Assembly (NCBI GenBank): GCA_029339195.1
Contig: JAPTJF010000089.1
Location: 97,595-161,594 of the forward strand
DNA from: Micractinium sp. NFX-FRZ
Lineage: Eukaryota; Chlorophyta; Trebouxiophyceae; Chlorellales; Chlorellaceae
Reading direction: 5' to 3'
Length of the DNA: 64,000 nucleotides
Made by a program: the position numbers and the translations under genes. Below are positions 1,802-63,597 of this stretch, in pieces. Every line of letters starts with the position of its first letter. Position 1 is the stretch's first letter. Below the pieces are notes generated by a model that did no database searches, was not told where the DNA came from, and was given only the letters and a program-made list of their open reading frames with translations.

Positions 1802-4800
1802 ATGGGGCGGGACGTGGAGACACCGGAGAGCCAGTATGGGTGAGTTGCCCGCGATCGAGGTCGAGGTCACAACCCTGCTGCCCGCTGCGTGGGGAACCCA
1901 GATGCAGGCGGGCCAGTGGGGCGCATCGGTTGCCAGGAATGCTGTCAGAGCGGCCATTTGGGCTGGGCTGCCCGCCACCAGGAGGTCGCTGGCCCCTGAG
2001 CTCCCCGCAGCCGACTGCCGCGCCCCCACGGCACCTGTGGACGCGCAAGGGGTCGGTTACTACAGCAGGGGGGCGCCGGATCGCGGCGCAGTGGCTCCCC
2101 AAAGCCCTCACCGCCGCCGCTGGCGCCCCTGCCCTTGCCCCGCCACCTGCAGCTACATCCGCAAGGTGTCGGGCCCTGTGGTGGTGGCCAGCCGCATGGG
2201 CGGTAGCGCCATGTACGAGCTGGTGCGGGTGGGAGCAGAGAAGCTAATTGGCGAGATCATTCGGCTGGAGGCGGACACCGCCACGATCCAGGTGCGGCGG
2301 CACGCGGCTGCGGGTGGACAGTTAGGGTTTGCGCTCGGAGGCGGAGAGCCCTTGCCAGCTGCATGGCTGGCATCTCCCTTCCAGCCTGCAATTGTTGCAT
2401 GGTGACAATGGCAGCTGCTATGTCCGGTGCTGTGCAGGTGTATGAGGACACATCCGGCCTCACAGTGGGCGACACAGTGATCCGAAGCGGCAAGGTGTGT
2501 GCGGCGCAGTGGAGGGCAGCGGGCAGGGTTGGGTTGTGCATGCGGGACAGCACCGCAAAAGTGCAGCGAGCCTGCCTGCTGCTTGAGATCCGTACGAGGC
2601 TGGCAGTGGGTGTAGCGTGAACAAGGGCAGCCGGTGCAGCACACCGCTGCTCCTGTCGGCAGGCGGCAGGGAGGCCCATGCATCACATGGCACCTGGCAG
2701 CAGCCAGCTTTGACCTAGCTGTCCAGCCACTCCATGCCTGTCCCCAGCTCCCGTATCAACGTGCGGCACCATGCCTTCTGACCACCAGACTGCACAGCTA
2801 TCATCTGCTGAGCTGGCCAAGCACTTGATGTGCTGCTCACGTGTCAACTCACGTCCACCTCACCTCCCGCATCCCTGCAGCCGCCGTCTGTGCAGCTGGG
2901 ACCGGATGGGCAATCTGACTTCATCCAGCGTTGTGCGTCTGCATAGCCATCATGCCGTCTTCCACCGGCTTCACGCACTCGTTCCTGCCCCCTCCCTGCT
3001 GCCCCACTGCCCCCCTGCAGCCGCTGTCCGTCGAGCTGGGCCCCGGCATCATGGGCAACATCTTTGACGGCATCCAGCGCCCGCTCAAGCAGATTGCGCT
3101 GGACTCTGCCTCCTGCTTCATCCCGCGCGGTGTGGACGTCCCCGCGCTCGACCGCAGCCTGCAGTGGGAGTTTGAGCCCACCCGCTTTCAGGTGGGCGGG
3201 GCAGCACATGGGCGGACAAAGCGGGGGAGGGAGGGTGGGGGAAGTGAGGCGGGAGCGTTGCCAGGCAGCCTGCAGCTGGGGTTGCTGCGCACACGTGGGC
3301 AGTGTTGAGGTGGCCTGCCACACCTGTCGGGGCCTGGACTGGAATGAAGCCTGCAGCGGAAGGGCGGCCTGCAGCAGGAGCTGGAGTGTGGGCATGCGGG
3401 CAGGCTGGCAGGGGCAGCTGGTGTGTGAGGAGAGGGGAGGCAGGGCATGGAGGCGTGCTAAAGAATGAGGCGTAGCAGACGTGGGCGTCGGGCATCATGT
3501 GCTGTGCACGAAGGCGGATCCGAAGTCAGCGAGAGCAGCAGTGGCCAGCGTCTGGCAGCTCCCCATCATCAATCAAGCGCTGCCTCGTCCGCCCCTCCAT
3601 ACCTGCCCTTACTTGCCTGCACTCCCCAAAAACAGCCGCGGCAGGCGACTGCATCAGTATCGGGCGCTCCCTCCTTCCTGCCTGTGCTCACTATGCCTGT
3701 GTCGCATCGCAATGCAGGTGGGCGACCGTATCACCGGCGGCGACATCTACGGCATTGTGCACGAGAACAGGTGAGGGCAGAGGGGTGCTGGGAGCGTTTG
3801 GGGAGTGTAGCCTGGGATGGAGTGGTGGTGGAATTCATCACTACCAATGCTGCCTAGAAGACGGAAGCCTTGGAGCAGTGGACACCCATGCAAGGGCGCA
3901 GGTTTCACACCGCCCCGCTCTGTTGTTAAACCTTCCACCTCTCCTCTCCCCTTCACCCCCCGTGCTCCCCTGCAGCCTGATGGAGCACAAGATCATGCTG
4001 CCCCCCGCGGCGCGCGGCAACGTCAGCTGGATCGCCCCCGCCGGCTCCTACGGCATCACCGACAAGGTCATCGAGGTGGAGTTTGCGGGGCAGAAGAAGG
4101 TGAGAGGCGGGGGAGCGTTGCCTCTTGATTGCGGGGGGAATGTGGTACAGCATGTTTTAGGTATTTGTATTGCGCCGACAAGGTCATCAAGGTGGAGTTT
4201 GCGGGGCAGAAGAAGGTGAGGCGGGACAGCAAGAGACAGGAGGAGGCGGGGTGAGGGGTACGGGCGCGTGGGGGTGAGGGGCTATAGAACGCTTGCAGCC
4301 GCCACCGTGGCGGCCGTGCCCCTGCCAACTGTAGTGTCCGCTGAATGGGTATAACCCCTAGGAACGACTTGCTGCCTCCCTCTGCCTGCCGCCTCGAGCC
4401 CGTTTGTTTGCCGCCTGCCCCTCCAGCGCGCTCTGCCCACGCCTGCGTCCATCTGCCCCTGCCCGCCCTGCCCTCTGCCCTCTGCTCCACCCACCTCTGC
4501 CCCTCCCCCTCCCCCCTCCTCCCTACCCCCCCGTGGCCACCCCGCAGGAGTACAGCATGCTGCAGCTGTGGCCCGTGCGCGCCCCCCGCCCCGTGGCTCA
4601 GAAAATGCTGGCCAACACGCCGCTGCTGACGGGGCAGCGCGTGCTGGACGGCCTCTTCCCCGGCGTCCTCGGCGGCACCTGCTCCATCCCCGGCGCCTTT
4701 GGCTGCGGCAAGACCGTCATTTCGCAGGTGGGGGGCGGGGTGCCGCTGCGCCGTGGGTGCGCATGCTGCTTTATATGTGGTGTGCATGGTCTCCGCAAGC

Positions 4801-63200: not shown

Positions 63201-63597
63201 CAACGCACCGCCTGAATGGCACTCTGGCAGCGTGCGACAGAGCATGCTGCAGCTCAGAAGGGAGGCTGCCACGCCCGCTGGCCCACACCCGCCCCGTCCC
63301 CAGGGTGCCAAGTGCCCCACGCACCTCTGCCGCCGCCGCCCCCTCCCCCGGTGCCTTTGAGTCTGCATTCTCCTGGAACGAGTGAACCACTATGGAGTGC
63401 TGCCGCCGCTGCTGCGGCCCCATGCCAAGGCCCCGTGCTGCCGGCTGTTGCGACCTGCAGGCGCAGGGGCGGCGGCGGTGAGCGAGGCGGCAGTGGGCCG
63501 GCAGCACGCTGCGCGGGCGGGTCAATGGCGGGGCCACCAGGGGCCCGAGATCGCGCGATCGGGGAACGTGACCCATCATCGGTGGCTCGCCGGCCAT
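57232..63597 (-). CDS. Hexose-phosphate:phosphate antiporter, UhpC/UhpT-like (MFS, OPA family)
   Basis: Twelve-helix organophosphate:Pi exchanger. Exons in reading order: 63325-63597, 62746-62904, 62396-62475, 61774-61927, 61306-61378, 61013-61080, 60646-60742, 60277-60385, 59825-59918, 59162-59314, 58753-58878, 58301-58370, 57857-57943, 57232-57344. All phases agree: 551 aa, or 493 aa from the ATG at 63423. Marks: GYSCFYLTRNSLTYTAPAM; KFVSGVLGSRTSPQ; WALNGMLQGVGAPCCARIL; then MWNIAHNMGGFLAPI; LLILLGVRDSPEAIGYPPVE; FFLYGPQMMIGLCGAEL; and GFLGWVAYLGAANAGIPL. These follow bacterial UhpC/UhpT motif by motif. From 63597 the frame is open with an Arg/Pro/Ala-rich leader that could be a plastid transit peptide. 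A CTGCAG acceptor context at 63454-63459 means an upstream leader exon is also possible. Transported sugar phosphate is inferred from family only. Confidence 0.87.
57724..57745 (-). repeat. Echo of the UhpC-like exon 13 3' edge
   Basis: GTGAAGTAGGCGCCCC on the + strand is repeated here and at 57859-57874, where it is the end of exon 13. Confidence 0.7.
58022..58058 (-). repeat. Echo of the UhpC-like exon 13 start with acceptor
   Basis: GGCAGCGCCCGGATAGGCCG, then CCCACCCAGCC resembles 57920-57946 (GCGGCGCCCAGGTAGGCC, ACCCAGCC). Confidence 0.75.
58440..58490 (-). repeat. Echo of the UhpC-like exon 12 start with acceptor
   Basis: CGCCGCACAGACCAAACATC followed by ATGTGCAG resembles 58349-58374 (CGCCGCACAGGCCAATCATC, ATCTGAG). 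Confidence 0.78.
59378..59428 (-). repeat. Exon echo: copy of the UhpC-like exon 10 start with acceptor
   Basis: AGACGCGCAGGCTGGCGGCG, CCGGC(A/G)TCCGCCACGCCCT and GACCTG match 59272-59317 with very few changes. Confidence 0.94.
59543..59569. repeat. Repeated palindrome AGCTCAGCTGAGCT
   Basis: GCTGAGCTCAGC and CAGCTGAGCTCAGCTG overlap to form self-complementary stretches. It lies in a UhpC-like gene intron, next to GCGCT repeats. Confidence 0.85.
59608..59757 (-). repeat. Exon echoes: copies of the UhpC-like exon 9 3' edge
   Basis: ACCTGGAGCAGGTAGAAGAC, then AGCCAGGAGGTGACCCCCTG at 59711-59753 parallels 59823-59865. A more diverged copy is at 59608-59660. Confidence 0.9.
59999..60150 (-). 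repeat. Exon echoes: copies of the UhpC-like exon 9 5' edge
   Basis: GGCGAGGGCCGGGCCCACAA and CAAAGGGG occur at 60001-60030. A weaker copy is at 60112-60150. The source is 59888-59925. Confidence 0.85.
60830..60860 (-). repeat. Exon echo: copy of the UhpC-like exon 7 start
   Basis: CCCCACTGCCAGCCATGCAT and TTGC followed by TTGCACAG copies 60722-60750. It would read MHGWQWG in place of MYGWQWG. Confidence 0.85.
61551..61606 (-). repeat. Exon echo: copy of the UhpC-like exon 4 3' edge with donor
   Basis: GCCCACCTGCAGCATGCC, GCGCCCA and CAGGTGCAGA(G/A)CCAG match 61768-61815. Confidence 0.93.
62019..62176 (-). repeat. Exon echoes: two copies of the UhpC-like exon 4 5' edge with acceptor
   Basis: GAGCCCAGCACGCCCGACAC, then (G/A)AACTTGCTGCA occurs at the real exon (61899-61931) and again at 62021-62053 and 62140-62172. 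This is a unit of about 120 bp. Confidence 0.95.

Follow-up and report, generated by a model that had tools for sequence, protein, structure and literature searches.

In the potato RdRp gene, intron gain is described as a tandem duplication crossing an intron–exon boundary, and the same account describes a Rogers-type AGGT duplication model with ATP2A1 as its example (PMC4974935). In Drosophila, novel introns are reported to arise by regional tandem duplication of coding sequence, with some of the 25 novel positions attributed to sliding (PMC2891723). Double-strand break repair is described as making small head-to-tail tandem duplications (PMC8355091), and introners, a single element copied to many loci, are described as altering introns genome-wide, algae included (PMC9860276). 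Here we describe the introns of a 64,000-nucleotide stretch of Micractinium sp. NFX-FRZ (contig JAPTJF010000089.1, positions 97,595 to 161,594 of the forward strand; hereafter the window), many of which carry near-copies, or echoes, of the edge of the adjoining exon. These exon-edge echoes are a real observation in this genome, confirmed by the counts and controls below. We consider the best reading to be tandem duplication across exon–intron junctions, followed by selection on splicing and then by exon-to-echo gene conversion, and give this full sequence of events about an even chance of being correct.

Echoes are local, direct and derived from the adjoining exon

The genome (66 Mb in 838 contigs; guanine plus cytosine content 65%) was sampled as the window and 20 random ten-kilobase pieces, 264 kb in total. 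Self-BLAST of the window (E ≤ 0.01, pairs less than 1.5 kb apart) gave 53 direct repeat pairs and no inverted pair. With the whole sample cut into 10-kb pieces and a threshold of E ≤ 0.001, there were 158 direct and 11 inverted local pairs, against none of either orientation in dinucleotide shuffles, the kind of control that a preliminary description of the window had proposed. Direct pairs are present in 16 of the 20 ten-kilobase pieces and absent from the other four; one of the 11 inverted pairs lies in the window and seven lie in piece L012. Piece L006 contributes 17 of the 158 direct pairs at offsets of 171–807, all divisible by three, and these therefore probably belong to a repeat-rich coding region and are not echoes. 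Direct orientation and locality, at 158 direct to 11 inverted pairs, are as in the small tandem duplications of break repair.

Only the V-type ATPase subunit A (V-ATPase A) gene was modeled from homology. Its exons were placed by PDB alignments, apart from the first short exon (1802–1839), which was taken from the gene finder, and the homology-placed exons join into an open frame. The longest open frame of this region is not the coding one and had no match in a PDB search. All other exon edges are predictions of a home-made hidden Markov gene finder, seeded with the V-ATPase A gene and trained on the same sequence, which at times labels an echo as an exon (5525–5578, 6072–6080). Three predicted chaperonin genes, located by PF00118 and fetched after training, provided an out-of-sample check. 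The gene finder's own set contains 387 introns with flanking exons of at least 40 bp each, and hence 774 intron sides; 85 of the introns are in the window.

Exon-edge copies were found in 25 of the 85 scanned window introns, distributed over six gene models, as had been claimed from the letters alone (at least 25 introns in six genes). Ten are in the V-ATPase A gene, two in the model at 16.2–19.6 kb, one at 21.9–25.2 kb, four at 33.3–44.4 kb, one at 49.0–53.0 kb and seven at 57.2–63.4 kb. Over all of the sequence, 58 of 387 introns contain an exon-edge echo, on 65 of 774 sides. Classified by kind, the pairs comprise 39 on the donor side and 41 on the acceptor side (80 exon-edge pairs, with identities of 69–100%, mostly 73–94%) and 20 confined to the intron. 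A looser majority labelling of 192 pairs gave 74 exon–intron, 73 intron–intron, 41 exon–exon and four other pairs, so the rarity of intron-only pairs hinges on the counting scheme.

The preliminary description held that every echo derives from its own neighbor and is not transposon-like, and this is borne out for the one intron searched genome-wide, V-ATPase A intron 5, whose only matches are itself and the adjoining exon edge. In the chaperonin genes, five of 78 exon edges score at least 34 in their own intron, with none doing so in 39 other introns or in reverse complement, and 14 of the 78 outscore all 39 other introns where 1.9 would be expected.

The V-ATPase subunit A gene

Nine of the 28 V-ATPase A exon edges match their own intron with scores of 39–80 and reach at most 28 in the 13 others. 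Even as protein, one decayed echo remains recognizable (beginning qlsmtl). The acceptor motif of exon 9, CGCCTGCAG followed by AGTACT, occurs three times, in exon 9 and in its echoes at 5929..6118, and the donor motif of exon 10, ATCGTGCAG followed by GTGAGG, recurs with its exon side ending at 7001, 7103 and 7213. The features of this gene are as follows (offsets in bp).

1802..9829, plus strand: V-type ATPase subunit A gene; 14 homology-based introns plus a first intron from the gene finder; ten with echoes
2873..2930, plus strand: weak acceptor-side echo of the exon 3 start (3013–3079), offset 140, 73% identity
4059..4111, plus strand: donor edge of exon 5, source of the echo at 4175–4225, offset 116, 94% identity
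4175..4225, plus strand: donor-side echo of the exon 5 edge, in intron 4100–4547
4887..4922, plus strand: acceptor-side echo of the exon 7 start (4999–5034), offset 112, 89%
5171..5214, plus strand: donor-side echo of the exon 7 end (5065–5108), offset 106, 91%
5522..5581, plus strand: acceptor-side echo of the exon 8 start (5643–5705), offset 121, 89%; decayed frame matching V-ATPase protein
5929..6118, plus strand: two acceptor-side echoes of the exon 9 start (exon from 6190), offsets 113 and 227
6408..6575, plus strand: donor-side echo of the exon 9 end (6277–6465), offset 131
7073..7329, plus strand: two donor-side echoes of the exon 10 end
7830..7890, plus strand: acceptor-side echo of the exon 12 start (7945–8004), offset 115
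8151..8189, plus strand: weak donor-side echo of the exon 12 end, offset 75
9521..9639, plus strand: acceptor-side echo of the exon 15 start (9614–9736), offset 93

Edge restriction, spacing and intron length

Exon edges were compared with exon interiors (60–105 bp in) for exons of at least 110 bp in 384 introns, with a chance level of at most 1/16. A better match to their own intron than to 15 other introns was found for 83 of 437 edges, as against 24 of 437 interiors and, in reverse complement, 19 edges and 18 interiors. This is stronger evidence than the modest junction enrichment relative to random shifts (77 of 170 pairs, compared with 55.6 ± 5.3 and a maximum of 71 for the shifts). By hand count, 70 of the 80 blocks span the junction, taking in the exon edge, the splice site and adjoining intron, and the exon part of the block measures 12–63 bp in all but four of the 80.

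The spacing between source and echo has a narrow peak. Single-unit pairs, defined by offsets of 70–170, have a median offset of 113 bp (interquartile range 103–129, n = 60), with 12 of the 60 falling within 110–113, and double-unit pairs (190–270, n = 17) have a median of 217 bp. Offset is independent of block length (rho −0.15, n = 42). In 58 of the 60 single-unit pairs, the detected echo and the live splice site are at least 43 bp apart within the intron; on the acceptor side this margin is where the branch point and pyrimidine tract would lie, and a similar margin is presumably needed on the donor side.

Introns without an echo have a median length of 245 bp, compared with 321 bp for those with block-only echoes and 421 bp for those with long or array echoes, and the frequency of echoes rises from 0 of 51 introns of 60–149 bp to 11 of 25 introns of at least 500 bp. 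Together with an extra unit in one paralogue (see below), these medians support the earlier proposal that introns lengthen by duplication, although longer introns are also roomier. The companion proposal, that introns are born in this way, found no support: an intron newly made by AGGT duplication would have its echo at the opposite splice site, and no echo abuts that site, the closest echo junction being 81 bp from it.

The exon copy looks to be the constrained one

Over 65 exon edges, mismatches per site between exon and echo are 0.106, 0.132 and 0.153 at codon positions 1–3, and the proportions of synonymous and nonsynonymous differences are pS 0.212 and pN 0.108. The resulting pN/pS of 0.51 fits a constrained exon and an unconstrained echo, in line with the earlier statement that the exon-joined copy keeps the intact coding sequence; to judge from these substitutions, the exon copy looks constrained and the intronic copy looks to be drifting freely.

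The predicted loading of transcripts with decoy splice sites can be followed at the level of sequence, where such sites do exist: of the 80 pairs, 60 have the splice dinucleotides aligned, and 53 of these retain them (30 of 32 donors and 23 of 28 acceptors), where 46.7 would be expected from the identity of the exon part. Their persistence means that there is no sign of decoy removal. Frame-preserving selection was considered and rejected, as the single-unit offsets are spread evenly over the three frames (21/19/20).

Fate of the rest of the unit

Outside the exon-derived block, homology is absent from most single echoes. The spacer score per base is −0.011 against −0.022 in shuffles (74 pairs), and in single echoes with short blocks the next 30 intronic bases agree at 0.516 on the donor side (17 pairs) against 0.486 for a swapped-partner control, and at 0.529 on the acceptor side (17 pairs) against 0.526. 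A spacer profile of the 17 donor-side short blocks had given residual spacer homology of 0.44–0.53 against 0.20–0.29 in shuffles; this was rejected because the control had let the alignment slip, and the signal disappears with the swapped-partner control. The intron half outscores all controls in seven of 34 single echoes. A full head-to-tail unit is hinted at by the arrays, by a young and nearly full-length unit at 21977–22156 in the window (94% over 81 of 98 bp) and by gene B of the C18 pair described below, with no clear trace in the remaining 27 single echoes; the full tandem origin is therefore drawn from a minority of single echoes plus the arrays.

In the arrays, the two intronic copies agree at 0.847 in the exon-derived block and at 0.565 in the spacer (shuffled 0.521). 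Block agreement exceeds spacer agreement in all ten intron sides with two usable intronic copies, and the spacers of all ten arrays score above their own shuffled mean. Something keeps the exon-derived half alike.

Paralogue comparisons

The genome contains 35 matches to the chlorophyll a/b-binding family, which mark it as probably that of a green photosynthetic eukaryote, and two tandem pairs of these genes were compared, one row being dropped where the second gene has no true intron. Exon identities are 0.82–1.00, with six of nine exons at 97–100%; five of six introns are at 0.76–0.86 with many gaps, and two or three of them are near shuffled scores. Conversion limited to similar stretches would give such a contrast. 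In piece L024, one exon of such a paralogue pair (1233–1334 and 5374–5475) is 100% identical, and the adjoining intron scores 44 against 15 ± 10 in shuffles.

The C18 tandem genes A and B share an intron that is nearly identical over its first ~290 bp and retains only residual homology over its last 145/173 bp (score 39, null −5.3 ± 8.7). Within this divergent segment the gene A echo is identical to the exon edge at 23 of 24 positions, a match that gene B lacks at the corresponding place, and the MAFFT alignment is ungapped at the echo site; this one echo was probably rewritten in place. The next intron contains one old echo at 113 bp in gene A (score 50; 0 of 500 shuffles as high), and in gene B it contains two copies, one at 219 bp and a nearer one at 112 bp that differs from the exon at three of 50 bases. 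The number of units thus differs between the two lineages, and the extra unit is lineage-specific. In the arrays, in C18 and in the chlorophyll-binding pairs, bar one intron, identity changes sharply where homology ends, as expected of gene conversion.

Echoes in the other genes of the window

The echoes outside the V-ATPase A gene, together with the predicted MFS-transporter gene, are listed here.

17440..17491, minus strand: donor-side echo, source 17701–17752, offset 261; predicted TLC-domain gene
18291..18402, minus strand: donor-side echo, source 18384–18495, offset 93
22075..22156, plus strand: donor-side echo, source 21977–22057, offset 98, 94% over 81 bp; predicted HAD-hydrolase gene
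34786..34847, plus strand: acceptor-side echo, source 34874–34936, offset 88
37120..37159, plus strand: acceptor-side echo, source 37249–37287, offset 129
37533..37646, plus strand: donor-side echo, source 37296–37409, offset 237
40035..40226, plus strand: two donor-side echoes, source 39865–39920, offsets 165 and 322
40419..40614, plus strand: two acceptor-side echoes, source 40673–40745, offsets 129 and 268
52070..52168, minus strand: weak donor-side echo, source 52207–52305, offset 137, 73%
57232–63423, minus strand: predicted MFS-transporter gene (gene-finder model)
57408..57462, minus strand: acceptor-side echo, source 57296–57350, offset 112; MFS-transporter gene
57714..57739, minus strand: donor-side echo, source 57849–57874, offset 135, 92%
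58445..58487, minus strand: acceptor-side echo, source 58337–58379, offset 108
58663..58700, minus strand: donor-side echo, source 58775–58812, offset 112
59378..59440, minus strand: acceptor-side echo, source 59266–59328, offset 112, 91%
59603..59754, minus strand: two donor-side echoes, source 59812–59865, offsets 111 and 210
59988..60139, minus strand: acceptor-side echo, source 59876–60027, offset 112
60808..60866, minus strand: acceptor-side echo, source 60698–60756, offset 110
61552..61604, minus strand: donor-side echo, source 61767–61819, offset 215
62004..62215, minus strand: two acceptor-side echoes, source 61881–62053, offsets 118 and 238

Other features were noted beside these. The gene model at 33.3–44.4 kb contains, within introns, a dispersed transposon-like repeat (38645–39457; 95% identical to contig C573 over 0.8 kb, with many partial copies) and a 44-bp minisatellite of 5.2 copies (41997–42224). 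Contig C120 opens with 77 bases that match window positions 57331–57407, at an exon–intron edge, with 100% identity; this is either a contig end left unresolved in the assembly or a recent duplicate. A dispersed match of ~100 bp at 61200–61299 was set aside, as it reads as a simple CCTGCC-type repeat. A predicted core-histone gene (PF00125) at 9883–12235 has four introns, the first of ~1.2 kb.

Origin and maintenance of the echoes

In the reading that we prefer, a recurring local process would duplicate ~113 bp across exon–intron junctions, on donor and acceptor sides alike, in units that may originate in DNA repair. Function would remain with the copy that is continuous with the remainder of the exon, and the second copy would turn into an echo within the intron, bearing a decoy splice site. 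Selection on the splice margin would presumably spare those duplications in which at least ~43 bp of intron keeps the live site and the echo apart. The intron half of the unit would then decay to nothing. Short-tract gene conversion, or a comparable template switch in place, would act as the homogenizing step, overwriting the exon-derived half time and again with the sequence of the exon, and because of this rewriting that half would outlive the rest of the unit. Repetition would produce arrays at ~113 and 217 bp and longer introns. A stricter statement, that copying is anchored on the junction and proceeds in ~113-bp steps, placing the last 20–60 bp of the exon with its splice site at a fixed distance into the intron, on the donor or the acceptor side, and refreshing it from the live exon, we put forward only tentatively.

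Several points weigh against this reading. Outside the V-ATPase A gene, the exon edges are gene-finder predictions made from sequence alone. Of the 34 single echoes, 27 have an intron half that at least one control equals or exceeds, three of these 27 being in the top 5%. Because the array copies were picked for their resemblance to the exon, the block figure is biased high; the 43-bp margin was taken from detected blocks, and trimmed blocks overstate it; and the association with intron length is in part a matter of room, longer introns offering more space for echoes. In the chlorophyll-binding pairs one intron is 0.96 identical and three exons are at only 0.82–0.92, and the exon identity could reflect codon bias. 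As for C18, the echo acquires two 1-base gaps that offset each other when a second aligner is used, the divergent segments differ by 28 bp in length with a gap right after the echo, the decay in gene B alone of a once intact echo fits equally well, and the argument for change in place rests on a single paralogue pair.

The main rival, which we regard as rather unlikely, is junction-anchored template switching, in which a polymerase of replication or repair steps ~113 bp and copies an exon-edge block of 20–60 bp in place or with filler, mostly with no full unit ever formed. Spacers without homology, the independence of offset from block length and the C18 gene A echo, ungapped against gene B in one alignment, are what such a process would leave. 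The arrays, on the other hand, keep residual spacer homology, as do seven of the 34 single echoes, a nearly full young unit exists, and echo-bearing introns are longer, which is not expected from in-place copying.

Plain neutral tandem duplication with random breakpoints, in which exon-edge copies merely stay visible since the exon half diverges half as fast, we consider unlikely. It accounts for the young, nearly whole unit at 21977–22156, for a pN/pS that fits neutral echoes, for array spacers that all exceed the shuffled mean and, under the looser labelling, for intron–intron pairs as numerous as exon–intron pairs (73 and 74 of 192), as a junction-blind process allows. Simulations of this process nevertheless gave exon parts longer than 63 bp in 32–43% of cases, against the four of 80 observed, and retained the intron half far too often, even at 0.9 indels per substitution. 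At identities of at least 84%, only 5–18% of simulated units with a long intron half lose it (22–36% of all units), and in 17 of the 18 observed pairs the intron part is 25 bp or less. In the simulations, detection of intron-only and of exon-edge pairs differs by no more than a factor of 0.74–0.82, compared with the 20 and 80 observed, a ratio that depends on the counting. A splice-margin constraint would lift the objection from exon length, but not that from the lost intron half. The preliminary claim of tandem duplication accordingly stands as regards duplication across the junctions and fails in its simple form, in that most single echoes lack spacer homology and such an outcome is rare in neutral simulations.

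It is quite improbable that the echoes are selected decoys, kept since a splice site with an exon-like flank helps or regulates splicing. The splice dinucleotides do exceed expectation and blocks are better kept than spacers, but the echoes are without coding-type constraint, their offsets occupy all three frames, and at the threshold used no echo is seen on 709 of 774 intron sides. Mobile introns, transposons or an assembly artefact can be dismissed almost entirely, since apart from the dispersed element in one intron at 38645–39457 the evidence runs the other way: intron 5 matches only itself and its own exon edge genome-wide, other introns score lower as controls, and misassembly does not give the observed spread of pair identities.

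Comparison with known systems

In searches of an open-licence library we found no report of exon repeats in algal introns or of a genome-wide, edge-restricted pattern with a fixed step. The Chlorella variabilis genome paper may mention exon-like repeats in introns, and a prior description is therefore possible. Viral contigs were scanned for relatives and none was found. The gain of intron length is seldom caught in the act, and here 65 of 774 intron sides hold traces of differing age with a common step size, which suggests that introns in this genome grow and are rewritten by local copying anchored on splice junctions. The copies also suggest which junction-crossing duplications the genome tolerates, namely those after which the live site keeps at least ~43 bp of intron. 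Were the sampled rate to apply across 66 Mb, there would be thousands of natural decoy splice sites, as read from sequence, to serve as a test set for site choice by the spliceosome.

As far as the accounts cited here describe them, a single boundary-crossing duplication (PMC4974935) and intron gain by duplication of coding sequence (PMC2891723) are already in print. In the potato RdRp unit the 3′ part of an intron is duplicated together with the 5′ edge of the exon that follows, an arrangement shared by the acceptor-side echoes here, but the potato duplication is described as one case in which a new intron forms (PMC4974935), whereas in this genome 58 of 387 introns are affected and the copy stays inside the old intron; donor and acceptor sides are here about equally represented (39 and 41 pairs), with a spacing peak at ~113 bp. 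As in the AGGT model, splice sites are part of the duplicated sequence and the protein is not altered; that model, as set out in the same account, turns an intronless exon into one with an intron one unit long (PMC4974935), and no echo is found here at the far splice site. The Drosophila case likewise involves exonic sequence that is duplicated and turned into intron, although the introns described there are novel (PMC2891723) and the copies here sit in existing introns across the genome. Break-repair duplications are similarly short, local and direct, but are described without a link to splice junctions (PMC8355091), while here it is mostly the exon-edge part that is kept, at a narrow spacing peak. 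Introners, too, alter introns on a genome scale (PMC9860276); unlike those copies of one element, each copy here belongs to its own junction, as intron 5, matching only itself and its exon edge, illustrates.

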